31,869 nt of DNA from positions 1 to 31,869 of IMG/VR virus record IMGVR_UViG_3300022591_000042. One strand, given 5' to 3'. Position numbers and translations under genes: made by a program. Below the pieces are notes generated by a model, which worked only from the letters and a program-made list of their open reading frames with translations, was not told the DNA's origin and searched no databases. Of this stretch, positions 2,897 through 22,632 are shown piece after piece; the stretch's first letter is position 1, and each line of letters begins with the position of its first letter. Origin of the DNA: a virus.

Positions 2897-5800
2897 ATGT
2901 CACGAGTTTTAAAAATTAACCAAGGTGATTATACACTACAGGTTGATGATACAGGTTCTATAATATTTGATACAGTTAGTGCGCAAACTACAGGCGATCT
3001 TGCTGTTGGTAAGGATTTAGATGTAAAAGGCAACATACACGTTACTGGTGTAGCATATGGTACTGCTCCAGTTGTTACAAACATATTGTACGTAACAATG
3101 GATGGTAAAGATACAAATGATGGATCATCACAAGATTCGTCACGTGCATGTCGGACCATTGGTGGTGCATTAAAATCACCTTTGTATACACCAGGAACAT
3201 CTATAAAAGTTGCAGCAGGCCATTACTTAGAGCAAAATCCTCTTGTTATAAAACCATACACATCAGTTATCGGTAGTGACTTACGTACAACATCAATAGA
3301 ACCAATTAATAAAACACAAGATTTATTTCATGTATCCAGCTCATGTTATTTGGCGCAGATGCAATTTATAAATGGTCGTAGTGGTATTGTAGATCCGTTT
3401 ATAGATCGCGGCGCATATGCTGTAACATTTCCAGTGTTTGAAAAAGTTGATTGTTATAAATCACCATATATTCAAAACTGTACAAATCAATCTGGTCCTT
3501 GGTTATATGATGGTACAATGTTCATACCTAACCAAACTGTTCAAATTCCTAAAGCAGTAGCTACTACAACATTTGGAGAAGGAGAATCAATTATAACAGT
3601 TGATGTTAGTGAAGGAACAATTGAAGAAGGCATGTCAATTAATACTGCACCGCAAAATATTGGTTTCTTTTCTGCTAGAACATTAATTTTATCAAATATA
3701 ACATTTATACAAGAACAAATTATTGAATATATCGCAGACACATATCCTTCTTTTATATATTCAACTGAAAAATGTAGTCGTGATATATCAATTATTTTAA
3801 AAAATATAATGTATGATGTTACTTTTGGTGGAAATTCTAAATCTGTTGAAGCTGGATTGGCATATTGGAATGGTGTGAGTAGCTTTATATCTGGCGAAAC
3901 TACTGAGACCACTGCTGCATTAACCCGTATAAACGGGTTGGCAGCTGCAATTATAAACAATGCAGATCCATCATTTACTGTTTATAATCTTTCTGCAACT
4001 CAATATAAAAATATTAATTTAGTTGGTGGTTCTATTGCAACTACATCAATTGCTGATAAAATTAATATAATAAAAACTATTATAGCAGATCAATCAAACG
4101 CTCCAGTTGTTTATTATAGTACTGGTGCAGAACCTGGTTTGGTATCCGCGGAGGAATTATTATTACATAATAAATCATTTATACAAGCTGAATTACTTGC
4201 ATGGATTGATTATTCGTACTCGGCATATGGATACGATGTGGCAAAATGTGAAAGAGATGTTGGATTTATAATTGATGCGATTATCTATGACATGATTTTT
4301 TCGTCTAATTTTAATTCAATAATTGCTGGGAGAGCATATTACCGAGCAGCAGCATCTTTTGCAATTACAAATGAAAAAACGCAAACAATTGCAGCATTAA
4401 CGTATCTAACATCATTAATAATTCCGTTAATACACCAAAATCCAACTGCGGTCGCATCTGTAACCTCAAATATGGCATTGATTAAAGATATAATTCAGTA
4501 TGGTATTCAAAATATACCGGCATTTGCCATTACAACACCAACAGGCAAAGATACTGGGTTTACTTATGCAAGGGACTTAATAGCAGCAAATACTAATTTT
4601 ATTAAAGCGGAAGTGATTGAGTACATACGACAAAATCATTTATCATTATATAATAGTATTGACAGGGATATATGCAGTCGTGATGTTGGGTATATTCTTG
4701 ATGCTTTATTTTATGATTTGACTTACGGCGGTAATCTTCAATCAATAATTGCAGGAGAAGCATATTTTTCTTATACAACATTGCAGATAGCGCAGAATGA
4801 AGTAACTGCAATATTAGCAGTATTTGAATTGATCGGTGATATTGTATGGAAACTAAATCAAGATTATTATATTCCATTACAGATGGTTGTTCCACAAGTT
4901 ACTAATACTCAAGGATCGTTAGAAGCTGCAAACGAGGCTCGTAAATTAATTAATGATATACGCGCAATTATTGATAATAAATATAAACCAATCAAAGTTG
5001 TACCAGCTGATACTGCATGGGTCGATGCGAATTTATTAAAAATGAAAAAAATATTAACTGCTTCAGTTAATAAATTAAAAGTACAAGTTACTGATCACAT
5101 AAGCACTACACAATTTAGCTATAATGTAACTTCATGTAGACGTGACATCGGATTAATTATTGATGCTGTTTCTGGTGATGCGTTATTAGGTGGGAATTCT
5201 AAATCAATAGACACTGGTTTAGCATACTATTTTGGTGACAAATTAGTAGTTAGTGTTGACGAAGTTCCTAAAATTGTTGGAACATTGGGAAGACTTAAAA
5301 ATATTATTGAACCGATTTTAAGAAATGAATTAATTACTAAAACATATCGCAATAGTGCTGATCAAATACAAGATATTTCATTGGAAAATGGTTATATAGC
5401 AACTCCAGCAATTAAACGAAATATAGATATTATAATAAATCTTATAGAAAATGGTAGATATGCTGTTCCGTTAAGATACGCTGGAACTGCATTATTTTCT
5501 GCAACTGGATTAAGTGCTGATGATGTAAGAATTGCTCCAACGGTTATTAATAAAAAAGCAATACCAGGATCTTCTACTCTTTTTGAAATTGAATTATCTG
5601 CACCAACTGTTGGAATAGGTAATAATTCTTCATTATATTTTGGTGAAACATCGAGTTATCCAATAGATGAAACACTAATTCCTTCATTATTTTCTGATAG
5701 ATGGGCTAGTAGAAAATTAGATCCATGGGGCGCAATGGGTGGAGCATTGATTGACGGGAATTCAGTAACTGACGTGTCACCAATTAAATCATTTGTGTTT

Positions 5801-7426
5801 GATGCATATACACAGGTTAACCAAGGTGGTAGAGGAGTTCGAGTTACTAATAATGGTTATTGTCAGTTGGTATCAGTTTTTACAATTTTTAGCTCTATAG
5901 CGGTCCAAGCCGATAGAGGTGGTATTGCATCAGTAACTAACTCTAATGCTAACTTTGGTGAATATTGTATGATTGCTAAAGGGTATGGGGTTAACGAATT
6001 TTCTGGCACTGTTTATAACCCACCAATTTTACCATTATATCCAAAAGGATATTACCCAAATGATGCAAATGTTGAGATTTTCGTTCCAGATGCAGTTTAT
6101 CGTCCTCATATTGCGTTAATCATGGAAGTAGAACCACCACTTACTTATAGAAATGCACAAGCTCTACCAGGTTTTATTTCTACATATACCACATTTTCAA
6201 CTATAACAGTAGGCACTTTAGTTTTAACTGATATTGATGTTACTGATATGTATATAGGTCAGAAAGTTTATATTCGAGATATATATGGACGCTTTGAAGA
6301 CCCTATATCTAATATACGATATATTCCTGAAGGCACAACAGTAATTGATGTCGGACCACATGCTTTATATTTAAGTAAGCCTATTGGTGTTACTGCTGGA
6401 AATCCACAAATTACAACATTTTTTACTTTATTTACATCTGGAAATGCGTATTATCAAGTATTATCTAGCACGTTGCAATTGGCTGCTGCAGAACCACAAC
6501 CTAGACTTAGATCCGATAAAACTACTATTGACAATTATTCAAATGTATTACCGGTTGAACAGCGAACAATTCATGTTGAATCATTGAATTTATTAAAATC
6601 TATGATGGTAAGTGTAGCAACCAATACAATTATCGTATCACCATACCAAACTAACGTTACTCAAATAACATATCTAATAGCATATCCAAATGGAAGTATT
6701 GCGGTTGATAGGTTAAACGAGCTAAATACTATTATAATAGACGGTATGACGTTTGCAGATGTAGAACATATGGTAGGTGATACTGTCATGATTGGTGCAA
6801 CACCACATACTATAACCATAACTAAAAAAGGTACTTCTGGTGAAGGATATGGAGATGCTGCAAATATCATTGATAATAACGTTGAATTTTTAGTTGAAGA
6901 AATAACTGCATTTTTAACTCTTACATACCCAGCATTGGTTTATAATAAAACTAAGTGCCGCAGAGATGTTAGGTTAATCTGCAAAAACATAGGTTTAGAT
7001 TTGAGGTCAGGTGGAAATTATAATTCAGTATTTTCCGGCCTGTCATATTGGTTTAGACCTGGCACTTATCATGTTGTTTCTCTAGAAAACCAAGTACGTG
7101 ATTTTGATTTATTCCCAGACGGTGCACTTGTAAACTTCTACCAACGTAGTTATATAACTGCTTCTGGGTATTTATTTGAGTATATTGGAGCAGGAACTAA
7201 CTATGGCGCATTGCCACAGATTGGTAGGGCAGATCCAATACAAGCAAACGAAGTAAACATGCTATCTGGTGGAAAAGTATTTTTCACATCAATTGATCAG
7301 AATGGTGACTTTAGGGTTGGCCCAGGACTATTAATAAGCCAAGCAAATGGAACATTAAGTGGTAGAGCATTTCAAAAAAGTTTATTTGCAGAAATGACAC
7401 CATTTATATTAGCAATTGAAGGATAA
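2897..7426 (+). CDS. Giant tail fibre: beta-helix scaffold carrying five CxRD helical modules
   Basis: This 1509-residue protein is a probable receptor-binding or long fibre subunit. Residues about 60-215 look like a pectate-lyase-type right-handed beta-helix start (LYVTMDGKDTNDGS, then KPYTSVIGSDLRTTSIEP, then GPWLYDGTMFIP). The helix pattern resumes near residue 941 (DPWGAMGGALIDGNS through EYCMIAKGYG). Between them lie four helical modules of about 150 residues, each with a C-x-R-D helix, at Cys293, 451, 593 and 747. A fifth is at 1354. A terminal module with EYIGAGTNYGALP (about 1427) and SIDQNGDFRVG matches the 11014-14937 protein. Its ribosome-binding site is the GAGGGG involved in the alternative hairpins. 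The fibre role is inferred from family resemblance; receptor and partner are unknown. Confidence 0.8.
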   Translation: MSRVLKINQGDYTLQVDDTGSIIFDTVSAQTTGDLAVGKDLDVKGNIHVTGVAYGTAPVVTNILYVTMDGKDTNDGSSQDSSRACRTIGGALKSPLYTPGTSIKVAAGHYLEQNPLVIKPYTSVIGSDLRTTSIEPINKTQDLFHVSSSCYLAQMQFINGRSGIVDPFIDRGAYAVTFPVFEKVDCYKSPYIQNCTNQSGPWLYDGTMFIPNQTVQIPKAVATTTFGEGESIITVDVSEGTIEEGMSINTAPQNIGFFSARTLILSNITFIQEQIIEYIADTYPSFIYSTEKCSRDISIILKNIMYDVTFGGNSKSVEAGLAYWNGVSSFISGETTETTAALTRINGLAAAIINNADPSFTVYNLSATQYKNINLVGGSIATTSIADKINIIKTIIADQSNAPVVYYSTGAEPGLVSAEELLLHNKSFIQAELLAWIDYSYSAYGYDVAKCERDVGFIIDAIIYDMIFSSNFNSIIAGRAYYRAAASFAITNEKTQTIAALTYLTSLIIPLIHQNPTAVASVTSNMALIKDIIQYGIQNIPAFAITTPTGKDTGFTYARDLIAANTNFIKAEVIEYIRQNHLSLYNSIDRDICSRDVGYILDALFYDLTYGGNLQSIIAGEAYFSYTTLQIAQNEVTAILAVFELIGDIVWKLNQDYYIPLQMVVPQVTNTQGSLEAANEARKLINDIRAIIDNKYKPIKVVPADTAWVDANLLKMKKILTASVNKLKVQVTDHISTTQFSYNVTSCRRDIGLIIDAVSGDALLGGNSKSIDTGLAYYFGDKLVVSVDEVPKIVGTLGRLKNIIEPILRNELITKTYRNSADQIQDISLENGYIATPAIKRNIDIIINLIENGRYAVPLRYAGTALFSATGLSADDVRIAPTVINKKAIPGSSTLFEIELSAPTVGIGNNSSLYFGETSSYPIDETLIPSLFSDRWASRKLDPWGAMGGALIDGNSVTDVSPIKSFVFDAYTQVNQGGRGVRVTNNGYCQLVSVFTIFSSIAVQADRGGIASVTNSNANFGEYCMIAKGYGVNEFSGTVYNPPILPLYPKGYYPNDANVEIFVPDAVYRPHIALIMEVEPPLTYRNAQALPGFISTYTTFSTITVGTLVLTDIDVTDMYIGQKVYIRDIYGRFEDPISNIRYIPEGTTVIDVGPHALYLSKPIGVTAGNPQITTFFTLFTSGNAYYQVLSSTLQLAAAEPQPRLRSDKTTIDNYSNVLPVEQRTIHVESLNLLKSMMVSVATNTIIVSPYQTNVTQITYLIAYPNGSIAVDRLNELNTIIIDGMTFADVEHMVGDTVMIGATPHTITITKKGTSGEGYGDAANIIDNNVEFLVEEITAFLTLTYPALVYNKTKCRRDVRLICKNIGLDLRSGGNYNSVFSGLSYWFRPGTYHVVSLENQVRDFDLFPDGALVNFYQRSYITASGYLFEYIGAGTNYGALPQIGRADPIQANEVNMLSGGKVFFTSIDQNGDFRVGPGLLISQANGTLSGRAFQKSLFAEMTPFILAIEG

Positions 7427-7439
7427 AAGGAATTAAAAC

Positions 7440-10400
7440 ATGGCACTAATACCATTAAATACATTTAAAACAAAAACTGCAGTATTAACCACAAAAGAAT
7501 ATAATCAAGCTAGATGTGCACGTGATACTGGCTTGATTATTGACTCAATTGCATTTGATATTTTATACCCTGGGGCTGGTGATACACCTGATGGTTCTGG
7601 AATGTATAATAAATTTTCACAAACAGCATTTGCTGGAGAGCAATATTGGGCACAATCAGCAACTAGAATCCCAGGTGAAGTTTTTCAAACATTAGCTGCT
7701 TTAGAACATGCAAAGGATGTGGCTGTTAAAATTGTAAAAAAAGAAACAGTCACTGTTACTACTGGCAATACACAAACTCAAGTTACAAATGGATATCAAG
7801 CTGGTTCATCTGCTGGTGTTCAGCGCGTAATTGATGAATTTAATTTGATGATTGATATTATACAGAATGGTATTGCTGGCACAACTGATAATATTGTTCC
7901 TAATTCTAAACAAGTTATCGATGCTGGATTGTTAAATACTGCTGATTTATTACAGGCCAACAAAACTTTTTTACAAGCAGAAGTAATAGCATGGATTGAC
8001 TATACATTTGTAACTAATGGATATCCAGACGTTAGTACAAAATGCAGTCGTGATACAGGTTTAATAGTGGATTCGTTGGAAGTAGATCTTTTATCTGGTG
8101 GAAATACTCAATCAACCTTTGCTGGTTTACAATATTGGAATCATGATTCGCTCTCACCATCAATGTTACAAACTCAACAATTAAATGAAAGTGCACAGAC
8201 GGCGGCAGCATTAACATTTTTAAAAGGAAAGATTGCTTATTATATTTCAAAGTCTGGAACAAATATTGATAATAATATGGATACTCTCATAAATATTATT
8301 AATAGTGGAATAAATGGCATAACTGATCAGATAGTACCAAATAATTACGTAACAACACCAACAAATTTAACAAAAGCTAATACGCTAATCGCTAACATAG
8401 AAAATTTAAAAACTGATGTTATTGTTTATATTAGTGCAAATCTGAGTAACCCACCTTTTAACGCTGCTGGATTTCAAGCAGCTTATAATGCCGATACTTG
8501 TAGCAGAGATGTTGGGTACATTTTAAATTGTATAATTTATGATATGTTATATGGTGGGAATAGACAAACAGTACAAGCAGGAGTATATTATTATGGTTTT
8601 AATACAACATCAACAGCTCTTCCAAATGAAGTTGTTAAATCTGTGGAGGCATATAATTATTTAAAATCATTAATAAGTAGTGTTGTAACTGCAAAAGCTA
8701 TTACAACAAGTGATCTTTACCAAAACACAGCTACCCAAGTTACAAATTTAAGCCCTGGGACAGTTGATGAAGCCGCAAAAGCTGAAGCAAATATGGTATT
8801 GATTACTGATATTATTCAACAAGGTGAGATGGCAGCTAATATTGTTAAAACGCCATTAAACATATCGTATGTACCGATTTTAAATGAAAAAAATGCTGCT
8901 GCATTATTACATGCTAATCGAGACTTCCTTAAAGCTGAGGTTGTTGCATTTGTTAATAAGCCATCATATGTGTATGATCAAGTAAAATGTGCACGTGATA
9001 CTAAATTATTAATAGAATCATTGGCGTTTGATTTACTTTCAAACGGTCAAACACAATCTAACTTTTCGGGTCTTCAATATTGGAATCATGACTCAACTAC
9101 TGCTGCTAGTATTCCAAATGAAAAAGCACAAACTGTGGCTGCAATTACGCATTTACAAACTTTAATTAGTCAAATAATTATTAACCAATCAGTAAATGTA
9201 GTTAATACTATAATATCACAATATGTTGATGTTACTAAACCAGGAAATGCAACTAGTTCAACTCGTATAACTACCTTATTTACAACTCTACTTGGAATAT
9301 TAAATAATGGGACAGTGGGAATAACTGATAAAATTGAAACCAATGTATATTCTACACCAGCAGATGGTATTATTAATGCATCTACTTTAATTTATGAAAA
9401 TTTATTGTTTATTAAAACAGAAATGATAGCATGGATAAATGACCAAATAGCAAATGCAACATCAGGGACAACTTTTTATAATTTTACTTATGATACTGAT
9501 AAATGTTCAAGAGATGTTGGTTATATATTAGATTGTATTCGATATGATTTATTATATAGTGGTAATAGACAAACAATACAAGCTGGTGCATATTATTATG
9601 GATTTAATACAGAGTCTACCGCAATACCTAATGAAAAAACGGAATCTATTGCTGCGTATAACCATTTAAAATCATTAATTGGTGATATTATACAATCTCA
9701 ACCGATTGCAAAAATATATCAAACAGATTACAACCAAGTATTATCATCAGCTCCTGGGTCAAGTGTTGAAGCTGCGAACACGGAATTGAATATTACCTTA
9801 ATAAATAATATTATTGAACTAGGAACAAAAGCTGCGAACACTAAAGAACCAATTAATATTTTATATGTCCCAACTACAAATGAAGAAAATGCAGCAACGG
9901 TATTATTGGCAAATAAAGACTTTTTGGCTGCAGAAATTGTATCATTTATAAATAATTCAACAACACCAAACTTTGTTTATAATTCAGCTAAATGTAAACG
10001 GGATGTTGGATATATTCTCGACTGTGTGACATTTGATATAAAACACAGTGGAAATAGACAGGCGATTCAAGCAGCAGTGCGGTATTATGATAATTCGGCA
10101 ACTGTATCAATTGTTCCTAGTGAAAAACAAGATACAATTAATGCATATAAATATATGGAGTATGTTATTTCTAAAGTTGTTAGACAACAACCAGTAAATA
10201 TTGGTGATTTGGGAACTCCATGGGCAAGCAATGCATATGTTGCAACTGGATCACAGATGTTCTATTCGGTTACTACTATTAACGGAGTAACGACAACATA
10301 TTTATATAGAGTAACTGATGGGGGAAATTTAGGATCTGTCGCACCAAATACTAATAGCACACAAACTAATGGTGGAGTTACTTTATCGTATATTGGTGTT

Positions 10401-11021
10401 AAAGAAGTAAGTCCAGATCACCCTAAATCACCATATCAAACTACTGTATTGCAAACCATACGACCATCTACTTTAGATTATAGTGCAGTTGTTAACAAAG
10501 TTGCTGATACAGTTACATTTTTAAATAGTGTTATAGAGACTGGCCCAATTATTGCTGAGAATTACCGATTACCAATAAGTCTTACTGCATCAACCGATTC
10601 ACCTACAGTCGATGCTTGGAAATCTATAGAAGAAAATAGAGAATATATTATAGCTGAAGTTATCGGATATATGAATTCGTTAACAACACCGAATACTACA
10701 AAAATATATACATCTCCTCCAGGTGTAACTGCAATTGTTTTAATGGCACAAATAGCAAATGTTAGCGATTCAGATGTAAATGTGACATTTGCACATTATC
10801 GAAATTTTCCAGTTATAGCAGATCCAGCAACATTAAATGGTGCACAAGCTGGTGATAACATTACTGTGCTACTAAACAATTTTACAATACCTTCACAAGA
10901 TTCAGTCACACCATTAACAGGTAAAATGATTTTAGAAAGCTTTGATAGTGTTGTAGCATATGCAAGTAAAAATAAATCATTACATATTACTTTAAGTATA
11001 TTGGAGACTGCAAATGCCTAA
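7440..11021 (+). CDS. Large tail fibre protein built of six CxRD helical modules
   Basis: This 1193-residue protein is almost wholly repeats. CxRD helices begin at Cys26, 202, 354, 517, 689 and 852, a period of about 150-175 residues. Each module reads C-x-R-D-x-G-x-[IL]-[IL]-[DN], then a D-[LM]-L-x-x-G-N/G-x-x-[QS]-[ST] turn, then AGxxYW or AGxxYY, then a P-N-E-K helix. Modules with YWNHD (Cys202, 517) alternate with modules with YYYGFN (Cys354, 689), suggesting duplication of a two-module unit. Residues about 1092-1193 form a different C-terminal beta domain (PPGVTAIVLMAQIANV ... LTGKMILESFDSVVA ... LHITLSILE) of the kind found on other phage virion proteins, perhaps for attachment. An AAGGAA site precedes the ATG, and the gene overlaps the next by 8 bases. 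No enzymatic motif is visible. Confidence 0.75.
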   Translation: MALIPLNTFKTKTAVLTTKEYNQARCARDTGLIIDSIAFDILYPGAGDTPDGSGMYNKFSQTAFAGEQYWAQSATRIPGEVFQTLAALEHAKDVAVKIVKKETVTVTTGNTQTQVTNGYQAGSSAGVQRVIDEFNLMIDIIQNGIAGTTDNIVPNSKQVIDAGLLNTADLLQANKTFLQAEVIAWIDYTFVTNGYPDVSTKCSRDTGLIVDSLEVDLLSGGNTQSTFAGLQYWNHDSLSPSMLQTQQLNESAQTAAALTFLKGKIAYYISKSGTNIDNNMDTLINIINSGINGITDQIVPNNYVTTPTNLTKANTLIANIENLKTDVIVYISANLSNPPFNAAGFQAAYNADTCSRDVGYILNCIIYDMLYGGNRQTVQAGVYYYGFNTTSTALPNEVVKSVEAYNYLKSLISSVVTAKAITTSDLYQNTATQVTNLSPGTVDEAAKAEANMVLITDIIQQGEMAANIVKTPLNISYVPILNEKNAAALLHANRDFLKAEVVAFVNKPSYVYDQVKCARDTKLLIESLAFDLLSNGQTQSNFSGLQYWNHDSTTAASIPNEKAQTVAAITHLQTLISQIIINQSVNVVNTIISQYVDVTKPGNATSSTRITTLFTTLLGILNNGTVGITDKIETNVYSTPADGIINASTLIYENLLFIKTEMIAWINDQIANATSGTTFYNFTYDTDKCSRDVGYILDCIRYDLLYSGNRQTIQAGAYYYGFNTESTAIPNEKTESIAAYNHLKSLIGDIIQSQPIAKIYQTDYNQVLSSAPGSSVEAANTELNITLINNIIELGTKAANTKEPINILYVPTTNEENAATVLLANKDFLAAEIVSFINNSTTPNFVYNSAKCKRDVGYILDCVTFDIKHSGNRQAIQAAVRYYDNSATVSIVPSEKQDTINAYKYMEYVISKVVRQQPVNIGDLGTPWASNAYVATGSQMFYSVTTINGVTTTYLYRVTDGGNLGSVAPNTNSTQTNGGVTLSYIGVKEVSPDHPKSPYQTTVLQTIRPSTLDYSAVVNKVADTVTFLNSVIETGPIIAENYRLPISLTASTDSPTVDAWKSIEENREYIIAEVIGYMNSLTTPNTTKIYTSPPGVTAIVLMAQIANVSDSDVNVTFAHYRNFPVIADPATLNGAQAGDNITVLLNNFTIPSQDSVTPLTGKMILESFDSVVAYASKNKSLHITLSILETANA

Positions 11022-14000
11022 TCTTTTAAGCGGAAGAACTAAAGTAACGGCTGCTGAAAATCTTTCAGCATCACGATATACATATATCTCACCAAGCCAA
11101 GCACAACCTGCTTTTGGAAAACCACCATTTAATCAAGCTGTACTCGTTTTTGATACTAATGGTAATTCAACATGGATTAAACAATCTTCATTAGTTACTG
11201 GCATTATTCCTACAAAAAATGTTATATTTGTAGCTAAAAGTGGAAATGATAGTAGTCCTGGAAATACAATAACCAATCCAAAAGCAACAATTGGATCTGC
11301 AATTGTGAGTGCGATACCTGGTACCACAATCATTGTTTTTAGTGGAACGTATAATGAAATAAATCCATTAGTTATTCCTGATAATGTGGCAATTATAGGC
11401 CAGGATACACGAGTATTTGTGGAACCTAAATATGTAATGGTAGATGTTTTTAAATTAAAAAGCGGATCAGCCGTTGAAAGTATTACTGTTATAAATCATC
11501 AAGCCCCAAGTTTTGCATTTAGTTTAGAACCTTCAGTTGACTTTATCGAATCTCCAGTTATAAAATCTTGTTCTAGTATTACTGGACCATTTCTAGTTAA
11601 TGGAACACGATTTATTCCAAATATAACTATACAAGGACAATTCGGTCCAACACAATTGCCATCAATGGATACATCGTTAACTGGGACAGGGTATGAAATT
11701 AACCCAAATGGTGCAGGTGGTGGTATCAAAGCCGATGGGTTATATTTTGGATCTGGAACAGTTGTAAGAACTCTCACAGTTGAACAATTTTATGCCGCCA
11801 ATCAGGGTGGGATAGGAGTAATAGCTAAAAATTCAGCAAATATTAATATTAAAAACAGTTTAACTGAATTTTGTTCATATAGTTATCAAGCTATTACTGG
11901 TGGACATCTTGAAGTTTCAAATTGTACTTCAAAGTATGGTATATATGGTTTAAATAGTGATGGTTTCGATCCCGATCCTTACATTTTAAATAGTTCAGTT
12001 TCTCAAACACAAGCGAGTGGAATTTTAACTATTAGAGTCTCTAGTGGAGGATCTGGATATATTGGTGCACCAACGGTCAGAGTGGGAACACCTTGGCAAG
12101 CTAATGCAGCAGTAACTACAAATTCACAAATTTATAATAGCAACACTGGCAAAATGTACTTGGTTTTGGCAGGTGGAAATACATCATCTGCTGCGCCTAC
12201 TAATGTAGGAACAACTGCGTTTAATGATGGTGCAACTGCGTCATTATTATATACTGGAAATGTTGCAACTGCTACCGCAACAGTTTCTGGTGGAGTTATA
12301 ACTGGCGTAACACTAAACACTCCGGGAACTGGTTATACAACTATACCTACTGTAACATTGGTTAACACTAATGGTGGAAGTAATGGTCAAATCGTTGTAG
12401 ATGCGTTAAGTGGAATATCACTTATAACAATTGGTGAAATAACACAACATCCAATTAATGGTTCTTTGGCACAATTTACTGGTAATAATGATAAGCAAGT
12501 AGTTTCATCTTCGACAGTTGTAACAGTTGCCAGTTCCAATATAACAATAAAACCAAATTTAAATTATTTACGACAATCAACAACAGTATCATTCTATAAA
12601 GGTAGTATGATAGTTGCAACAATGCATAATTTTAATAACATTGGAGCTGGCGTAACATACAATGCATTGCCTGAATATGGCAGTATTCCATTACCATTAA
12701 ATGAAATAATACAAACCAATTATGGACAAATTTTTTATTCAAGTATTAATGAAACAGGCACTGTTAATATTGGTAATAATTTTACTATAAATCAACTCAC
12801 TAATACTACAACTGTTAATGGTGGAGCATTAGATTTAACTCAAATTAGTGATATTGGTCCATTTATACGTAATGGTGTTCCAGTTGGGGTAAAATTAAAA
12901 GAAATTAGTGATAATATAACATTAAAAGGTTCAACTAATACTTTTGATTCATATACAGTGCCCACACAAAATGCCATATCACAATTTTTAAGTAATAACT
13001 ATTTGCCTCTTTCTGGCGGAACTGTTACTGGTCCAACCAATATAACAAATTTAAGTTTTTCTTATACTACGAGTACATCCAACGCAACTATTGGGACAGT
13101 TTCAGATACACAAAGTATTATTATTGCATCTGGGAATAACATAATTAATGTTAATAATAGTAAATTGATTAACGTTGTGGACCCGCAATCCCCACAAGAT
13201 GCTGCTACGAAACTTTATGTAGATCTTGCAATAAGAGGTGGTGTTTCATCAATTAATACACAACAAATTGGCGCATTTGAAATCAGTGGGAATTCAATAA
13301 CCAACACAAACAATAATGGTGTGACACTATTAGCAAATACAGGAGCTGGATTTGTTGAAATAACATCTACTGTTGATAGCACTTCAATTAATAATGGCGC
13401 CCTTGTTGTTGATGGTGGTGTTGGTATTGCTAAAAATGTGTATGTTGGTGGCACGTTGCATGTTTTAACATCAATGTATGCCTCAGTACTTATCGGTAAT
13501 GTCAGTGGATCAGCAACGACGGTAACTGGATGGGACCAAAGCGCAATAACAAAAGTTGGAAATTTATCAGATTTAACTGTTGGAAATTTTAAAATTTCCG
13601 GAGATACAATAAAAAATCAGCATTCTACATCAAATTTAATTTTAGGTGTAACAACACGTGGTGCAGTATTACCAGAACTTCCTAGTACTATTGATTTTGG
13701 ATCCACTGACTTTAAATGGCATACTGGGTATTTTGACTCATTATACGGAACAGTTAAAACTAGTTCTCAACCTTTTATTAGTACTCTATCGTCTAATGTT
13801 AATATTGTCGATAGTACGTTTGCGTTTGACTCAACATTATCGATCGGATATAATTCAAATAATAAACTCGCCATAAAAACAACACACACAGGTAATAAGT
13901 TGGCACAAGTTCAATTTATAACGACTACTGACAATACACAAACTGATGGGTTTGGGTTTGAATTTTGGCCTAACGGCAATCTTTCATTAAAGGTTGAGGA

Positions 14001-14937
14001 TGGAAAGGTCACAATAACAAATGATTTACGAGTTGTAAATCATATTTATATTGATAATCCTATACTGACTTTGGGACAACGTAATCGTAATAATCTTACT
14101 GACAATGACTATGGTGTGACATCATTAAATAATACTGAATTAAATGCTAGTGTGACAGTACGCACTATATCTAATGGCAATTCAACAGTATCAGCACAGG
14201 TTATATTTCCATTGCCACCATCTACTTATGGTGTTAAAGTACATGATTATTTAACTATAATTGGCAGCGGTAATGTTTCATTAGACTCAGTTTGGGAGGT
14301 TATATCAATTATTGATAATAATGCATATATTAATGTAACTTCAAATGTTAACACTGGTGATTACACACCAACCACCGTTCTTTTAAGTAGAAATAGTTTT
14401 TTTGGGTATAATCGTGAATATGATGCGTTTACCTTTATTCCAGATGCAACTATTAATACAGCAAATAATACCGTTTCTGGTGATTTTGGGTATATAAAAG
14501 CAAATCTCGACAGTAATAATGTACGATTGACTGGTGGCACGATTGATAATATACCAATTGGGTCATCAACTGCATCAACTGGCACATTTACGTCAGTGAT
14601 AACTGATGAGATTAAAGCCCGCACTGTTATTGAATTTGATAGTGTCGATCCCATAGTGCCTCATCTAATAGATTCATTTGATAAAACATCAGTTGATTTG
14701 GCAAAATATATTATTAAAATTAAAAATACTACTAACGGGTCAGTTACTGCACAAGAATTGATTTTAGTGCATGATAGTACCAACATTTTAATGAATGAAT
14801 ATGCAATTTTAAATACAACAAGTAGATTGGGATATATTTCAGGTCTCTTTGGTACTGGAAATCTTATTGATTTATATTTCACACCAAATGATGCTGGACA
14901 GCACTTTTCAATAAGCATAATTCGGTTTTACGCATAA
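11014..14937 (+). CDS. Large tail fibre with uninterrupted beta-helix and fibre repeats
   Basis: This is a 1307-residue fibre protein. Residues about 70-330 form a pectate-lyase-like beta-helix (VIFVAKSGNDSSPGN, GTYNEINPLVIPDNVAIIG, GPFLVNGTRFIPN, NANINIKNSLTEF-type rungs). SGxGY motifs follow at about 343 (GGSGYIGAPTVRV) and 436 (GTGYTTIPTVTL), then IGAGVTYNALPEYG (about 543), LPLSGGTVTG (about 664), VDPQSPQDAATKLYVD (about 722) and NGALVVDGGVGIAKNVYVGG (about 793). The last two are typical phage fibre motifs near trimeric coiled or beta-prism regions. The C-terminal domain (about 1228-1307) has AKYIIKI, TAQELILVHD and MNEYAIL and is shared in form with the next fibre. The start overlaps the upstream gene by 8 bases, implying coupled translation. 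Confidence 0.8.
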   Translation: MPNLLSGRTKVTAAENLSASRYTYISPSQAQPAFGKPPFNQAVLVFDTNGNSTWIKQSSLVTGIIPTKNVIFVAKSGNDSSPGNTITNPKATIGSAIVSAIPGTTIIVFSGTYNEINPLVIPDNVAIIGQDTRVFVEPKYVMVDVFKLKSGSAVESITVINHQAPSFAFSLEPSVDFIESPVIKSCSSITGPFLVNGTRFIPNITIQGQFGPTQLPSMDTSLTGTGYEINPNGAGGGIKADGLYFGSGTVVRTLTVEQFYAANQGGIGVIAKNSANINIKNSLTEFCSYSYQAITGGHLEVSNCTSKYGIYGLNSDGFDPDPYILNSSVSQTQASGILTIRVSSGGSGYIGAPTVRVGTPWQANAAVTTNSQIYNSNTGKMYLVLAGGNTSSAAPTNVGTTAFNDGATASLLYTGNVATATATVSGGVITGVTLNTPGTGYTTIPTVTLVNTNGGSNGQIVVDALSGISLITIGEITQHPINGSLAQFTGNNDKQVVSSSTVVTVASSNITIKPNLNYLRQSTTVSFYKGSMIVATMHNFNNIGAGVTYNALPEYGSIPLPLNEIIQTNYGQIFYSSINETGTVNIGNNFTINQLTNTTTVNGGALDLTQISDIGPFIRNGVPVGVKLKEISDNITLKGSTNTFDSYTVPTQNAISQFLSNNYLPLSGGTVTGPTNITNLSFSYTTSTSNATIGTVSDTQSIIIASGNNIINVNNSKLINVVDPQSPQDAATKLYVDLAIRGGVSSINTQQIGAFEISGNSITNTNNNGVTLLANTGAGFVEITSTVDSTSINNGALVVDGGVGIAKNVYVGGTLHVLTSMYASVLIGNVSGSATTVTGWDQSAITKVGNLSDLTVGNFKISGDTIKNQHSTSNLILGVTTRGAVLPELPSTIDFGSTDFKWHTGYFDSLYGTVKTSSQPFISTLSSNVNIVDSTFAFDSTLSIGYNSNNKLAIKTTHTGNKLAQVQFITTTDNTQTDGFGFEFWPNGNLSLKVEDGKVTITNDLRVVNHIYIDNPILTLGQRNRNNLTDNDYGVTSLNNTELNASVTVRTISNGNSTVSAQVIFPLPPSTYGVKVHDYLTIIGSGNVSLDSVWEVISIIDNNAYINVTSNVNTGDYTPTTVLLSRNSFFGYNREYDAFTFIPDATINTANNTVSGDFGYIKANLDSNNVRLTGGTIDNIPIGSSTASTGTFTSVITDEIKARTVIEFDSVDPIVPHLIDSFDKTSVDLAKYIIKIKNTTNGSVTAQELILVHDSTNILMNEYAILNTTSRLGYISGLFGTGNLIDLYFTPNDAGQHFSISIIRFYA

Positions 14938-14961: not shown

Positions 14962-17900
14962 ATGACAAATGCTACTAATAAACAATTTTTAACTAGAACT
15001 GGAGTATTATTACCAGCTGGTTCAACAACACAAGCACCATTAACTTTTCAACAATCATCACCAACTGGAAATAACTTGTTGTCTACTATTTCAGCAGGTT
15101 CAATTGAATGGGATGGATATAATTTTTATGTAACAGAAGCAAGTACAAATACAACATACGGTCTTAATAGTTATACTAGCAATACTACTACTATGACAGT
15201 AGTGACTGGTTTTTTCACTGGTACAGCGAATAATGTAGTTACTGTAAATGCAGTGACATCACAACCAGTAAGACAACAAATTGCCTACAAAAACTCAACA
15301 ATCTTGCCACCAATTACCAAATATAGGGCCGCTGGATTGGCAATTTATAAATTAGACAGTACTCAGCAATCGGTAATAGTTAACGGAACTCCCACGCTAT
15401 TTGATCATCTTAATTATGTGTATGGGTATTCTACTGCTACACAGATATACACTGATATAGCTCATATTAACGATACTGATGATCCAGAATCTTATACTAC
15501 TATAACTGCATACAGAGCACAAAAATTTGCGCAAGCAGCAGCTGGTGTTATTATGCCACCATGTGTGCCTGGTAGAAAAGTTACCGTGATGAACGATACT
15601 CCTTCTGCATTACAAATATATCCAATGGCCAGAGTGACTAAAACTGGTGCAACTAGTAACGGTACTATATTTACGTTAAATAGTGGTGAAACAACTAATG
15701 GATTGTATCCGGGTATGAAAATATTCAGTATTACTGGTAGTGGGAATGGTGCAATTGATGTAAACGCAAGCAATAGGATTGTAAGTATTCTTAGCACCAC
15801 TCAATTTGTGGTTGATACATTGCCAACAACCGCTTTTACTGTTAATGCTAGTGTTTATAGTTCACTTAATTTTAATACTCTTTCTCCGCAGATAAACGGG
15901 GATAGTTCGTTTTTATCTATTCAAAAACAGTCAATGGAATTTGTTGCAGATCCGGATGGTGTTAACTGGATTATGACTGGATCTGCAAAAATATCTAGCA
16001 CTAACGGCCCGGCGACTTCAAACATTACCATGTATTCAGTATTATATGCTAATGGTGTTGATCCGGCTGGTGTTACACCAGTATCAACTACGACTTCTAC
16101 TGGTTCTGTCTTAATTTCAGGCGGATCTAATAGCGCACCGAAATATGGTCAAGTAAATTTATCAAGTGGTAACAATATGATCACTGGTATATTACCACCA
16201 GAAAATGGAGGGACAGGGTCTGCTGGAACTACTCTAAGTGCAGCATCTAATACAACCGTGTATAGTATTATGCCATCAGATACAATAGTAAAAGTACTTA
16301 ATATTGGTTTAGGTGTCCCTAATATTTTTATAGGAAATACTGCATCTTCGTCAAATGTTACAATTAATGGAAATCTTATAGTAAAGGGTGTTCAAGAAAC
16401 TGTTCAATCTACAACGTCAGTATATACTGATAGCGTATTAGAATTACAAAAAGCAGCATCTGGTGGCTGGATGACGAGCGATCCTCTAGTTGATGTTGGA
16501 CTACGGTATCATGAATTCAATGAAAATAATATACCATTTTTTCAAATAGCTGGATCTGCAGGCGCATCAAACACATTAATACTTTCGGATCCTATTGTTT
16601 TACCAGTGGGATCGGTTGTTAAAGTTTATATGGCATCAGCAATTGGTGGTATTACTTCAACAAGTCCGTATGCAGTATCCAGTTCAGGATCAACCACTAC
16701 TATCAACAATGTATCATATAACCAGACTGTTCTTACAAATGCTTCTGCTACTGCACTACCTAGCACGAGTAAAACTGGTTATTTAACTAGAGTTACAAAT
16801 TTTACATTTACTGCTATAACTACCAGCGTAATTTCTCCTGCAACAGCCACTACGTCTGCATATGTTACTGCAACATTATCATATAATACAACAACGTACC
16901 CTGGGATATTTGCAGTTGGTGATATTATAACAATAAATGGTACTTCTATCGCTACAAGTGTGAACAACTATAACGGAAGTTGGAAAATAACTAGTGTCAG
17001 TTCGGGAACGTTAGCTGTTAAAATTGAAAACACTGATACAAATAAGTTACCAGACGGTTCTGGGGTTGTAGCGAGTGGTGTAGCAGGTACTGTATATATT
17101 GATGATCATTACGCATTTACTGGTTGGGATAATTCAAGTAGTAATTTTTACTTCTATAAAGAATCATTAGAAACAACGACTAGTGGTGCTGGTACTGGAA
17201 CTGTAACTGGTATTTATGGGAACGTTAAAGGTTCAACATTTGTGTCAAGACCATCTGGTATATTACCAGCCAGTGATATTTCTACTGGTATGTCTATAAG
17301 AGTTGACCCATACACTGTAATAGTGGATCAAACAACCGCATTTAATACCGTGTTGCCACAAGCATCAACGGTAAGAATTGCACAGATGACGTTAGACTCT
17401 TACACTACGTCAGCAAGTTTTACAAATGCAGCATCATTATATATTGATAACTCACCAAAAGCTACTGGCGGTATAACCATAACAAATGCATATGCTATTC
17501 AAGTGGGTGCTGGTAATGTGTTGTTCGGTGGAAATTTAAGAGTTGATGGCGGCACTTTAACAGCAAACATGTCATCTGCTGGCACATTTTACTTATTAAA
17601 TAATTCTTCTGTTACTGGATTAAGTGTTGGTACAAGTTCTGTAAAAACTGTAATTGGTGCACCGAATGCGACTGTTGAAATTGGTACAACTGGTGGTACT
17701 GGGTCAACATTATCGTTAGCTGCGCAAAGTGCTAATACTGTGACTATATCAGCTAATACTGCTAATACTGCTTCTGTTTTTGATGATTCAAATGTAAGTA
17801 CTGGTTCACTTTTTGCCAATGCAACTTCTATCAATGTAGCAAAATCTACTGCTGTTGCAAATTCATTGGATGTAAAATTTGGTAATAATGTAACAGCTGG

Positions 17901-19500
17901 AACAACAATTACGGTTGGTGGTTCAGCAGGTAGTGGAAAAGAAAATAAAATAACATTGGGGGGTGGGGCTGGAAGTTTGGCAACAATTGATTCTAATACA
18001 GCCGCCACTGTATCATTATTCCCATCAAATACTTCAAGTGTTAGTATAGGATCCATTGTACCAACTTTAAGATTACAAACTGGACTTACTGGAAATACTT
18101 CTACATATATCGGTACACAAGTATCACAAACTGCCACTACTGCAGTATACATTGGAAAATCTGATACATCAGGGACTTCAGCAATCTATCTTGGTGCTAA
18201 AAATGATGGTACTACTACTACTGGAAAAGCAATATTAGATGCAACAACAGCTACTGCTAATGGTTACATTTTCCCAACTATAACAAGTGGTAACGTATAT
18301 TATAGTGATAATGCAGCTAATAGTTATTTTGGAAATTCAAATGTATCGTCAGTAACTTTAACAATTGGTGGAAATGCTACTGTAAATACTAATTTAATTG
18401 TAGGATCAAGCTCGGCTACTGGAACTAATAGTATAAAAATTGCTTCAAAAACAACTGGTGCAGTTAAAATAACAACTGATGTGACTACTGGATCCGCTAC
18501 TATTTTTGATACTGTATCTGGGTTAACAACTATTGGTGCAACCACAATAAGTACTGGAAACGGCAATGTGATGTTAGGTAAATCACCTAATCAAATTGCA
18601 AATGGAAAAGAAGTAGTTACTGCTGAATGGGTGTTAAACGCGCCTGGTGCAATTAATACAATCTCTAAAACAGTCACATCACCCACACCTACTGTTATCG
18701 ATATTACTGGAGCTACTGCGCCGGGTGCATTTTTATTTGACAAGTATCGTGCAGCAAAATATGTAATACAAGCAACACAGATTGCTGGCAACCCAACATC
18801 TGGTATTAGTAATTTTAGATCACAAAGTTCTGAATTATTAGTAACGCATGATGCTCCAGTTGTTACTTATAATTTAACCAGTAATAATACCGGCACTTCT
18901 ACCATTACAGTCACTTCCCCAACACTTAATGGACTATTGCTTGGCATGAAAGTATCAGTTTTATCTGCTGCCCAAACTACTGATGCAATTCCAGCTAATA
19001 CATTTATTGTGGCATCAACTGGAACTAATATAACATTAAGTTCTAACGTAACGGTGGCAACTAATTGTGTTATATTAGCTAAAATGGATAAGCCATATGA
19101 TACTGGTCCGTTAGGTACTAACATTAATGCGGCTGCTGGGACACAAATACAATTTAACAACAATGTTTCAAGTTCAGCTGGTGTAGTATACCCAGGCATG
19201 GTTATGACCTTTGTACCACCACAGGCTCCTGCAACTATTTTGGTTACGTCAGTGACTTCATTAGGTTTCACGTTAAGTAACACCATAACTGGCGTGACAA
19301 GAATGACAGGAAATCCACAAGTTTTTTCTACTGAATACGGGGTAGTTGAAACAAACGGAACAGTAGCAATATATAATGCAGATGTTAACGCATCATCACC
19401 ATATGAGATATTAATTTCTGCAACTGCAGTAACTACTTCTGGTACAACCCTTGTTCAAAATCTTTATAGAATTGAGAAAGAGCTTATTGAAATAATGTAA
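14962..19500 (+). CDS. Giant tail fibre, Thr/Ser/Gly-rich, with interrupted C-terminal domain
   Basis: This 1512-residue fibre protein begins MTNATNKQFLTRTGVLLPAG and consists of beta-rich, Thr/Ser/Asn-heavy repeats. Fibre signatures include ENGGTGSAGTTLS (about 414), GNLIVKGVQETVQSTTSVYT leading to DSVLELQKA (about 469-490), YNGSWKITSVSSGTLAVKI, and GGNLRVDGGTLTANMSSAGT (about 855). The C-terminal domain, from about residue 1261 (YRAAKYVIQATQI, SSELLVTHD), resumes as VFSTEYGVVETNGTVAIYNAD only after about 150 intervening residues that hold two copies of a 'GMxVS ... ITLSS'-like unit. An AGGAG lies 9 bases before the ATG. A hairpin after the stop may end transcription. The fibre role is inferred from composition and motifs; no receptor can be named. 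Confidence 0.78.
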   Translation: MTNATNKQFLTRTGVLLPAGSTTQAPLTFQQSSPTGNNLLSTISAGSIEWDGYNFYVTEASTNTTYGLNSYTSNTTTMTVVTGFFTGTANNVVTVNAVTSQPVRQQIAYKNSTILPPITKYRAAGLAIYKLDSTQQSVIVNGTPTLFDHLNYVYGYSTATQIYTDIAHINDTDDPESYTTITAYRAQKFAQAAAGVIMPPCVPGRKVTVMNDTPSALQIYPMARVTKTGATSNGTIFTLNSGETTNGLYPGMKIFSITGSGNGAIDVNASNRIVSILSTTQFVVDTLPTTAFTVNASVYSSLNFNTLSPQINGDSSFLSIQKQSMEFVADPDGVNWIMTGSAKISSTNGPATSNITMYSVLYANGVDPAGVTPVSTTTSTGSVLISGGSNSAPKYGQVNLSSGNNMITGILPPENGGTGSAGTTLSAASNTTVYSIMPSDTIVKVLNIGLGVPNIFIGNTASSSNVTINGNLIVKGVQETVQSTTSVYTDSVLELQKAASGGWMTSDPLVDVGLRYHEFNENNIPFFQIAGSAGASNTLILSDPIVLPVGSVVKVYMASAIGGITSTSPYAVSSSGSTTTINNVSYNQTVLTNASATALPSTSKTGYLTRVTNFTFTAITTSVISPATATTSAYVTATLSYNTTTYPGIFAVGDIITINGTSIATSVNNYNGSWKITSVSSGTLAVKIENTDTNKLPDGSGVVASGVAGTVYIDDHYAFTGWDNSSSNFYFYKESLETTTSGAGTGTVTGIYGNVKGSTFVSRPSGILPASDISTGMSIRVDPYTVIVDQTTAFNTVLPQASTVRIAQMTLDSYTTSASFTNAASLYIDNSPKATGGITITNAYAIQVGAGNVLFGGNLRVDGGTLTANMSSAGTFYLLNNSSVTGLSVGTSSVKTVIGAPNATVEIGTTGGTGSTLSLAAQSANTVTISANTANTASVFDDSNVSTGSLFANATSINVAKSTAVANSLDVKFGNNVTAGTTITVGGSAGSGKENKITLGGGAGSLATIDSNTAATVSLFPSNTSSVSIGSIVPTLRLQTGLTGNTSTYIGTQVSQTATTAVYIGKSDTSGTSAIYLGAKNDGTTTTGKAILDATTATANGYIFPTITSGNVYYSDNAANSYFGNSNVSSVTLTIGGNATVNTNLIVGSSSATGTNSIKIASKTTGAVKITTDVTTGSATIFDTVSGLTTIGATTISTGNGNVMLGKSPNQIANGKEVVTAEWVLNAPGAINTISKTVTSPTPTVIDITGATAPGAFLFDKYRAAKYVIQATQIAGNPTSGISNFRSQSSELLVTHDAPVVTYNLTSNNTGTSTITVTSPTLNGLLLGMKVSVLSAAQTTDAIPANTFIVASTGTNITLSSNVTVATNCVILAKMDKPYDTGPLGTNINAAAGTQIQFNNNVSSSAGVVYPGMVMTFVPPQAPATILVTSVTSLGFTLSNTITGVTRMTGNPQVFSTEYGVVETNGTVAIYNADVNASSPYEILISATAVTTSGTTLVQNLYRIEKELIEIM

Positions 19501-19572: not shown

Positions 19573-22500
19573 ATGACAACTACAAGTTTTAAAGAATTTA
19601 ACGCAAGAAATGGCGCAGTTATTGGCACGCTAAAATCAAATTACATAAAAATCTCAGGTGGGACAACAACAACTGACCCTACTGTTATTACAACAATTGC
19701 AACAAATACCAGTTATGCTGACATAAATCTGAATTTAATTCCTGCAGGTACTGGATATGTTACTGTAACAGGGGGTTCTGGATTTATTATAGGATCATCT
19801 ACTACTGGTTTAACTGCTACTACTACTGGAATTACTAGAAATAATAATAGTCAACCAGGTGATTTATTATTAAGTCCATCAAGTACTGGATATGTTACTG
19901 TAACAGGTGGCTCTGGATTTATTATAGGAACATCTACTACTGGTTTAACTGCTACTACTAATTCTATTACTGTTAAAAACGGAACAACAAATACTGATTT
20001 AAATTTATATGGATCAGTAAGTGGTCATGTAGTTTCAAATAATAATTTTAACGCACCAACGTTGGAGTTAAGTGCAGCATCACCGGCAACACCTATTAAG
20101 GTTGCATCTACGATGCCTGTGTATAACCTCAATATATTAGGTGCTAATATAACTGCTGGAACACCTGGAACTGGTTCATTTACCACTTTTACAATTCCTG
20201 ATCTAGTTTCTATGAGTGCAGATACCGGATCAATAGATGTTGTTATTACACCACGTGATTCAAAAGGATATGATTTAACACCAATAACGAGTACTATAAA
20301 GTATAGTGTATCTAGGTCTTCAACAACGGTAGTTCAAGCACCATATTTTTATATTAATACAACTGGGAACAGTTTTACTAAAAATGTAAATGGTTCATTT
20401 TCACCGCCGTCAATTACAATAACCACTACATTTGGTTTAATAACGGGCATCACGTATCAGTGGTATAAAAACGGTACGATTATTAATTTAGCTAACACAA
20501 GCTCGTATACTATTGTTGGTCTAACAGATTACGCTGGCATACCAACAAACACGTATTCATGTACAGCAACTGGGACATACAATGGCAGTACAATTTCTAT
20601 CACTGACTATTATACTATACCAATAAATAACACAGGATCGACTCCAGCAATTTTATTATACAGTGAAAATGTTTTAATGAAGGCCCCCGCCACTGGATAT
20701 GCGACTATTGTTAAAGCACCAAGCACCTCCAATGACATCCAAGTTTATGATAGTACTGGAGCCTTACTTCAATATGGTACTCAAGGTGCTAACACATTTA
20801 GTTGTCATATAATTGCACAAACAAATGTGAATGTTGGTGTTGGTTCATCATTTATTCCTGCAAAATCTTTAGGATCAAATACTAGCACTACAACTGGAAC
20901 TTTATTTTTACGTGATGATCAATCATGGGCACCAGTCAGCCAAGCCGCCAACTCAGCTATAGCATTAAGTGAAAATAATAATAATGTAACACTATACATT
21001 GGTTCATCCGATTCTACTGCTGGAAACTGGAGTACTGGTAATGTTTCAAAAGGTTTTACTTATGTACCAAGCACTGGCACCTTAACTGTATCTGGGACTT
21101 CGTCTACTATTGTTATCGGGTCAACTACTAATTTAACGTTGACTACTAATAAGATCTCTGTTACTTCTAGTTCTACCACTGATCTAATATTACAGCCATC
21201 TAGCACTTCTGCATATGTTAATGTAACTAATAGTGCCGGATTTATTATAGGAACATCTACTACTGGTTTAACTGCTACTACTAATTCTATTACTGTTAAA
21301 AACGGAACATCAAATACTGATCTAATATTAACACCAGCTGGAAATGGTACTGTTTCTAGTGCAGCAGCAATATATGCTAAATCATTTGAATCATCTGTTG
21401 GTACTGGGACTGCTCCAATAAAGGTCGCATCTACTACGGTTGTTGACAACCTTACGATTTATGGTAAAAATGTAACAGGTACAACAGGGACATATGTTCC
21501 TGCAGCATCGTTAGGGTCATCTGTAGGAAGTCCGGTAGGATCAAAGTTTTTACGTGATGATCAAACATGGGCAACTGCTAATATAGCACTAAGTGAAAAT
21601 ACTGGAAGTATTGCATTATATCTTGGAATGTCAGATTCTACTGCTGGAAACTGGACTACTGGTAATGTTTCAAAAGGTTTTACTTATGTACCAAGCTCTG
21701 GTACCTTAAACGTATCTGGGTCTTCGTCTAATATTGTTATCGGTACAACTACTACTGGGTTATCGATTACTACCAATTCTATTACTGCTAAAAATGGAAC
21801 AGCAGACACCAATTTAACTTTAAATGCTGGGGTTACTACTGGTGAGGTTCAAATAATAGGACCTGGAAGATTACGAGTGGGTGCAGGTACTAATTATATT
21901 TTCTTAACATCCGGTGGGGTTACTGCATATGGTACCGACGCAAACTTGCAGATAAATGGTCAAGGAAATGGGTATGTTGTTACGGGTGGAAAGTTCAAAG
22001 CTAATGTATTAGAATCATCTGTGGTTGTGGGTACTGCCCCATTAATTATCGCATCTACTACACCAGTAGACAATCTTAATATTTTAGGTGCAAATGTAAC
22101 AAGTGGATCTATTGGGAATTCTTATGTACCAGTAAAATCATTGGGTAGTGGTTCAGCTACTGCTGGGAATCTATTTTTGGCAGATAACAGTACTTGGAAA
22201 TCTGGTAATATTGCGATTAGCACTGAGGAGTTATCAGCAAATAAACATTACATAGGCTCTTCAACATCAGTGACATCCGGTGATTTTTGGAGTATTGCGT
22301 ACATGTCTACAAATTTGTATTATTATCCTGTATCTGGAACATTAAATGCATCTATTTTTAATTCTACATCTGATAAAAATAAAAAAACAGATATAAAACA
22401 AATAGAAAATGCATTAAATATTATATCAGGTATTAATGGAGTAACATTTAAATGGAAGGAAAATAACTTAAAATCTGCCGGTTTAATTGCCCAGGATGTT

Positions 22501-22632
22501 GAAAAGTATTTACCGGAGCTAGTAAATTCTGATGATGATGTAAAATCATTAAATTATAACGGTATTATTGGTGTATTAGTTGAAGCAGTAAAAGAATTAA
22601 CAGAACGGGTAAAGATATTAGAACAACCTTAA
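19573..22632 (+). CDS. Tail fibre/spike with Ig-like domain and C-terminal S74 intramolecular chaperone
   Basis: This is a 1019-residue fibre. Residues 1-250 and 360-930 carry repeats of GFIIGTSTTGLTATTNSIT type and of NVSKGFTYVPSTGTLTVSG type. Residues about 257-355 look Ig-like, with a YQWYKNGT strand and YSCTATGTY. The C-terminus from Ser933 (STSDKNKKTDI ... GVTFKWKE ... SAGLIAQDVEKYLPELV ... GVLVEAVKEL) is a classic peptidase S74/endosialidase chaperone domain. In that family it trimerises the fibre and releases itself by cutting just before the Ser of the S-D pair, here Ser933-Asp934. The mature fibre would then be about 932 residues. The final helix is a likely trimer coiled coil. The gene is convergent with the Nudix gene, overlapping by 4 bases at the stops. 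It is probably the outermost receptor-binding fibre. Confidence 0.88.
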   Translation: MTTTSFKEFNARNGAVIGTLKSNYIKISGGTTTTDPTVITTIATNTSYADINLNLIPAGTGYVTVTGGSGFIIGSSTTGLTATTTGITRNNNSQPGDLLLSPSSTGYVTVTGGSGFIIGTSTTGLTATTNSITVKNGTTNTDLNLYGSVSGHVVSNNNFNAPTLELSAASPATPIKVASTMPVYNLNILGANITAGTPGTGSFTTFTIPDLVSMSADTGSIDVVITPRDSKGYDLTPITSTIKYSVSRSSTTVVQAPYFYINTTGNSFTKNVNGSFSPPSITITTTFGLITGITYQWYKNGTIINLANTSSYTIVGLTDYAGIPTNTYSCTATGTYNGSTISITDYYTIPINNTGSTPAILLYSENVLMKAPATGYATIVKAPSTSNDIQVYDSTGALLQYGTQGANTFSCHIIAQTNVNVGVGSSFIPAKSLGSNTSTTTGTLFLRDDQSWAPVSQAANSAIALSENNNNVTLYIGSSDSTAGNWSTGNVSKGFTYVPSTGTLTVSGTSSTIVIGSTTNLTLTTNKISVTSSSTTDLILQPSSTSAYVNVTNSAGFIIGTSTTGLTATTNSITVKNGTSNTDLILTPAGNGTVSSAAAIYAKSFESSVGTGTAPIKVASTTVVDNLTIYGKNVTGTTGTYVPAASLGSSVGSPVGSKFLRDDQTWATANIALSENTGSIALYLGMSDSTAGNWTTGNVSKGFTYVPSSGTLNVSGSSSNIVIGTTTTGLSITTNSITAKNGTADTNLTLNAGVTTGEVQIIGPGRLRVGAGTNYIFLTSGGVTAYGTDANLQINGQGNGYVVTGGKFKANVLESSVVVGTAPLIIASTTPVDNLNILGANVTSGSIGNSYVPVKSLGSGSATAGNLFLADNSTWKSGNIAISTEELSANKHYIGSSTSVTSGDFWSIAYMSTNLYYYPVSGTLNASIFNSTSDKNKKTDIKQIENALNIISGINGVTFKWKENNLKSAGLIAQDVEKYLPELVNSDDDVKSLNYNGIIGVLVEAVKELTERVKILEQP
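19749..19988 (+). repeat. Tandem direct repeat within the S74 fibre gene
   Basis: TACTGGATATGTTACTGTAA begins at 19749 and again at 19884, each followed by a near-identical run encoding GSGFIIG(S/T)STTGLTATT. The unit length is about 135 bases. The second copy continues into the 72-base stretch repeated exactly at 21238-21309. Confidence 0.8.
21010..21119 (+). repeat. About 110-base direct repeat, second copy at 21634-21743
   Basis: Both copies start GATTCTACTGCTGGAAACTG and share a long run encoding GNVSKGFTYVPS, with a few differences near the end. They lie 624 bases apart, so a larger module of about 208 codons was duplicated within the fibre. Confidence 0.8.
21238..21309 (+). repeat. 72-base exact copy of 19915-19986
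   Basis: By eye, bases 21238-21309 are identical to 19915-19986, encoding GFIIGTSTTGLTATTNSITV and the following KNGT. Identity at nucleotide level, including third positions, points to recent duplication or gene conversion within the fibre gene. Confidence 0.85.

Follow-up and report, generated by a model that had tools for sequence, protein, structure and literature searches.

The fibre gene at 2897-7426 of the window carries, at one fixed site, a cassette that we interpret as a tandem array of phycobiliprotein-related globin-fold modules, derived from the host and forming a side arm of adjustable length (with a probability of roughly three in four). Phycobiliproteins are the light-harvesting pigment proteins of cyanobacteria. 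The window is a 31.9-kb fragment of an uncultured virus that is known from its sequence alone; the parts of the genes at 2897-7426, 7440-11021 and 11014-14937 that are given below lie on the plus strand.

The genes at 2897-7426 and 11014-14937 encode proteins of 1509 aa (P0001) and 1307 aa (P0002), respectively. A preliminary description had assigned them a common scaffold, and BLASTP confirms this with three colinear blocks: an N block (P0001 41-216 against P0002 46-207, 3e-19), a middle block (940-1030 against 228-318, 2e-7) and a C block (1412-1504 against 525-618, 7e-12). The landmarks of the scaffold are found at residues 200, 942 and 1428 in P0001 and at 191, 230 and 542 in P0002; the first two are separated by 742 residues against 39, in agreement with the earlier estimate of about 730 against about 40. 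P0001 also matches the cyanophage tail-fibre scaffold phrog_17885 with the N, middle and C blocks in order. Its N-terminal scaffold (residues 50-216, 3044-3544; scaffold HMM 1e-32) runs up to SPYIQNCTNQSGPWLYDGTMFIPNQTVQ, the scaffold resumes with KLDPWGAMGGALIDG (residues 940-1036, 5714-6004; scaffold C-HMM 4.5e-29) and a conserved C-terminal domain follows at 7121-7423 (phrog_17885 and phrog_3442). The paralogous scaffold of P0002 (11149-11967; scaffold HMM and BLASTP) lacks the cassette and serves as a same-genome reference for a near-empty site.

The insert of P0001 comprises residues 217-939, or 3545-5713 of the window (3520-5720 had been given before). It holds exactly four CxRD modules, as the preliminary description had counted, with HMM E-values from 4e-41 to 2e-47: module 1 (Cys293, 3647-4060, 3.7e-43), module 2 (Cys451, 4115-4525, 1.9e-47), module 3 (Cys593, 4526-4942, 4.3e-41) and module 4, the last of the array (Cys747, 4994-5425, 1.4e-43). 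A fifth, truncated module (helices A-F, Cys1354) is present in a second insert at about 6839-7066, where the C.RD motif is found and the HMM gives 1.7e-37 over residues 1305-1445. This four-helix module may be a regular feature of the fibre, since in many inserted relatives the total module count exceeds the cassette count by at least one.

To test the insertion, relatives were fetched from IMG/VR with the module and scaffold profiles (at least 587 and at least 512 loci, respectively). Both scaffold blocks are present in 180 ORFs. Of these, 97 contain no module and their site is empty, the blocks being 0-20 residues apart. The gap is about 50 residues in P0002, in its copies and in a few more ORFs, and in all but two of those that remain it holds 1-14 modules. 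The compact fibre without insert also occurs in isolates such as P-SSM2 and S-SRM01. Insert length grows in whole modules: in a hand-picked non-redundant subset it amounts to 158 aa for each module on top of a constant 153 aa (r 0.993), the counts being those of a single HMM by which diverged modules can be overlooked. Among inserted relatives the junctions have a constant sequence: counted from the N junction, the first Cys comes after 94-97 residues in 17 of the 26 proteins and after 94-116 in 22 of the 23 matched ones (three of the 26 had no match), and the last Cys precedes the C scaffold by 177-217 residues in 23 of the 26. Dozens of relatives, with module numbers of 0-14, share these junctions, so the insertion is more than a chance observation. 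The empty sites, the constant junctions and a length that is set by the number of modules give good support to the view that a helical cassette was inserted into a fibre scaffold common to these proteins. In addition, last modules from different phages are closer to one another (0.466) than to the internal modules of the protein they belong to (0.367), a pattern consistent with modules being gained and lost within the array; we infer that the array grew by internal duplication.

The identity of the modules had been missed in the preliminary description: they are predicted to have a phycobiliprotein-like globin fold and appear related to the phycobiliproteins of the host. Single-protein searches of Pfam and the PDB yielded one Pfam match over the cut-off and otherwise borderline matches to phycocyanins, and we therefore used profiles and predicted folds. 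The search of HMM databases that had been suggested for the CxRD modules led to PF00502, with 32.3 bits for the product of the next gene (P0003) and 16.9 bits for P0001 against a curated cut-off of 22.2. Of 23 viral records, 3 exceed this cut-off and 15 match the family at E up to 1e-3; among 14 control genomes, such a match is seen in the cyanobacterium only. PF00502 matches 44 of 122 module pairs and is the sole listed Pfam family that matches more than one. When module profiles are compared to the PDB, the top matches are phycocyanin alpha chains; the similarity is weak (best E 0.0009), with CxRD in register with Cys84-x-Arg86-Asp87, the bilin-attachment motif of phycobiliproteins, whose residues are known to hold the bilin.

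In a profile-profile comparison (hhalign), the modules reach 94% with a set of 84 phycobiliproteins from cyanobacteria (E 9.8e-8, 98 columns), against 17.6% over 16 columns for the best of 45 other families, 0.2% for a reversed-profile control and only 0.1-0.2% for haem globins (PF00042 and PF01152). The match spans columns 42-148 of the 166 columns of the phycobiliprotein profile. The N-terminal X-Y helical hairpin, which serves subunit assembly in phycobiliproteins, is absent from the module match, and the first predicted helices are A and B.

The motif itself is present in all 11 modules of the window. In the IMG/VR modules Cys is kept in 96% (a figure somewhat favoured by the anchoring rule), Arg+2 and Asp+3 in 100% each and Asp+14 in 99%, and Tyr+30 is found in 88% (100% in the realigned set). 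In modules of isolates Cys (50 of 53) and Asp+3 (52 of 53) persist but Arg+2 is frequently lost (present in 26 of 53), and in divergent ones often C-x-x-D alone remains. At position +9 from the Cys, Asp is found in 82-83% of the modules against Arg in 100% of the 84 phycobiliproteins. Five cyanobacterial relatives have no Cys motif in the aligned region; three of them also lack the Arg-Asp and two keep it, so the fold does not simply depend on this motif. Its conservation is, however, no proof of a ligand.

Two AlphaFold models were made, and these are not fully independent since the proteins differ but the families overlap. The first covers a two-module stretch of P0003 (Cys689 and Cys852; 122 rows) and has a mean pLDDT of 80.9, rising to about 90-98 in the larger part of the first module. 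Six helices are predicted per module (16-27, 29-45, 60-80, 84-94, 107-125 and 149-168) in the globin order A-B-E-F-G-H; Foldseek against the PDB returns fused haemoglobins first and then phycobiliproteins (prob 0.99-1.00, none with E below 0.001). The second model, of a relative in which the scaffold carries a single module (L022; 78 rows, with scaffold-anchored fragments in the alignment), predicts the six module helices at pLDDT 87-98, and here the best 50 PDB matches are all phycobiliproteins (prob 1.00, best E 5.8e-4, TM by target length 0.52-0.75). In both predictions the module core thus matches the globin-like helical core A-B-E-F-G-H of PF00502. Named strong matches in a viral structure library (E up to 1e-3) are proteins of cyanophages or uncultured phages, with no phycobiliprotein name among the matches listed.

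It might be argued that the modules are an unrelated helical repeat of phages, in which the CxRD helix and the globin-like packing converged with those of phycobiliproteins. Most of the sequence signal indeed resides in one helix of 25 residues (masking it reduces the hhalign result from 94% to 3.9%, E 0.011), the identity in the fold matches of both models is mostly 12-20%, and the modules lack the X-Y hairpin and, as a rule, Arg+9, with divergent isolates often reduced to C-x-x-D. Nonetheless, the masked profiles keep an unchanged register over 94 columns, fold searches with both models lead to phycobiliproteins or globins, neither haem globins nor the 45 control families yield a profile match, and the domain is limited to phages of cyanobacteria. 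Moreover, Arg+9 does occur in a few isolate modules, among which CIDDTMKILRAFQYDL of P-HM1 shares both Arg+9 and Tyr+13 with phycobiliproteins. We therefore consider convergence unlikely.

The L022 model also bears on how the cassette is attached. In the preliminary description it was placed in a rung loop of a beta-helix, from where it would hang a receptor-binding or spacer arm from the fibre. Of this, the insertion stands. The N-side scaffold is likely made of beta-helix-type strands, predicted with high confidence (mostly short regular strands, the best stretches with pLDDT 85-94), and the rung loop is likely as well; it is not graded higher because the C-side scaffold strands reach a pLDDT of only 50-67 (pTM 0.45) and no significant match to a solved or curated beta-helix family was obtained for the scaffold in the PDB and Pfam (the best is a xylosidase, E 0.21). 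The exit from the scaffold does not seem direct. Strands are predicted on both sides of the module (176-213 and 391-428, mostly pLDDT about 87-96), which suggests that a small beta adapter links the modules to the scaffold. In P0001 the putative N half corresponds to residues 214-248 (3536-3640; pLDDT about 87-92 in the homologous strands), kept in all listed inserted relatives, and the putative C half to residues 877-926 (5525-5674; pLDDT 93-96, falling to about 70 at the end), also kept in inserted relatives.

Modules are not confined to this fibre. The next gene, 7440-11021 (P0003), consists almost wholly of six CxRD modules (7440-10310; Cys 26, 202, 354, 517, 689 and 852, recognised by the motif and by PF00502) with a small conserved protein fused to them; automatic annotation could name it 'Phycobilisome protein'. 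Its last 110 residues (10686-11018; tblastn with query 1083-1193, and gene order) match a small stand-alone protein of 110 aa that is encoded directly downstream of the compact fibre in phages of the P-SSM2 and S-SRM01 type, and the modules have therefore entered two adjacent genes. Across 50,697 phage records, the 200 that bear modules are all cyanophages. Modules occur in 13 of the 16 T4-like cyanophages of PMC3037559; they were not found in T4 or KVP40, nor in S-CREM2 (418-nm tail), and no module match was seen in 292 cyanobacterial genomes in a search run without a positive control. In isolates they are carried by ORFs for very large structural proteins and, in P-HM1, by gp7 (baseplate wedge type). 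The S-SM1 module protein SSM1_102 belongs to cluster T4-GC 969, which is reported to have been detected by mass spectrometry in purified S-SM1 virions (PMC3037559).

Taken together, our preferred reading is that domains of about 160 aa, related to phycobiliproteins and of globin fold, have been inserted as an array at a single, fixed position of a cyanophage fibre scaffold. Strands from both flanks would probably build a small adapter domain, so that the array would project sideways as an arm, longer or shorter according to the number of modules (0-14). Phages probably acquired the domain from a phycobiliprotein of the host; it would then have lost the N-terminal X-Y hairpin, multiplied, and spread to several virion genes (the fibre, the neighbouring gene, very large structural proteins and the gp7-type baseplate wedge protein). 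The arm function we infer from the architecture only.

Alternatively, the arrays could be receptor-binding modules whose diversity sets the host range, which would suit the fibre context and the variation in module number and sequence among relatives. Conservation is, however, strongest inside the module, as suits a structural unit, and a likely and more typical adhesin is encoded separately at 19573-22632, a fibre-like protein that ends in a Peptidase_S74 intramolecular chaperone. For the array, a role as spacer or arm is the simpler explanation, and we regard a role in receptor binding as improbable.

Other genes of the window were noted too. A protein of 1512 aa without Pfam or PHROG match is encoded between the fibre genes (14962-19500), and a tail sheath of 1105 aa (27454-30771) combines a C-terminal sheath domain with a weak match to the flagellin-hook IN motif. 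On the minus strand, opposite to the fibre genes, 1063-1680 has PHROG matches of the baseplate-hub and lytic tail-protein type. The end of a homing-endonuclease-like gene is located near the fibre genes at the window edge (1-495); in both P-SSM2 and S-SRM01, HNH endonucleases likewise lie ahead of the compact fibre.

Another possibility is that the modules bind linear tetrapyrroles (bilins made by host or phage) at the conserved Cys, giving virions with pigmented or light-responsive arms. If true, this would give a role to phage genes for bilin synthesis, the purpose of which has been called a mystery (PMC3037559), and perhaps to phage bilin lyases. A link between the modules and phage bilin genes is not supported, as their presence does not track: among the 16 isolates P-HM1 and P-HM2 have pebS together with modules, P-SSM2 and S-SSM7 have pebS but lack modules, and both pebS and pcyA are missing from many phages that carry modules. 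Among module contigs, which are fragments, a bilin reductase is present in 3 of 24 and CpeT and CpeS-type lyases in none. In P-SSM2, whose fibre is compact and has no modules, a haem oxygenase gene (L005:2668-3369) is located two genes upstream of the fibre gene. Hosts could still supply bilins to the modules despite this pattern, but overall we find the pigment reading very doubtful.

That the modules belong to the axial shaft of the fibre, at whose ends the scaffold pieces would be separate domains, might be suggested by long arrays that lack this scaffold on the N side in P0003 and in the very large structural proteins of isolates, but for this gene it is largely refuted and highly improbable, as the scaffold is contiguous in the 97 relatives and nearly so in P0002, and strands are predicted with high confidence on both flanks as if they formed one adapter domain.

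The preferred reading of a host-derived array of phycobiliprotein relatives would put a light-harvesting protein family into the particles of viruses that infect the organisms using it. It would also account in part for the very large, so far uncharacterised structural proteins of T4-like cyanophages and offer a virion arm of adjustable length, the growth of which can be read from the sequence. Furthermore, it makes testable whether phage-encoded bilin enzymes serve the virion. Use of the phycobiliprotein family in a virus particle seems to have no earlier description; within the open-licence literature we found no paper that links phycobiliproteins with structural proteins of phages.

In comparison to known systems, the modules resemble the phycocyanin, phycoerythrin and allophycocyanin subunits of PF00502 in helix order, predicted fold, the Cys-x-Arg-Asp on the bilin-attachment helix, roughly equal size and cyanobacterial setting. 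They differ in that they have no X-Y hairpin, Asp instead of Arg at +9, a near-invariant Asp+14 and Tyr+30, and no known chromophore, and in their arrangement as tandem arrays inside virion proteins. Bilin biosynthesis-associated globins (BBAGs) are phycobiliprotein relatives outside the phycobilisome (PMC10151467); set against the modules by description only, these are cellular proteins whereas the modules are structural repeats of phages. The compact tail fibres of P-SSM2 (PSSM2_293) and S-SRM01, which both belong to phrog_17885, have the scaffold and the small downstream gene in common with the window, but their site is empty and without modules. Finally, the long tail fiber protein of S-SCSM1 (SSCSM1_26), though annotated as a long tail fibre only and with just two recognised, diverged modules, combines the scaffold with CxRD/CxDD modules at the matching place.
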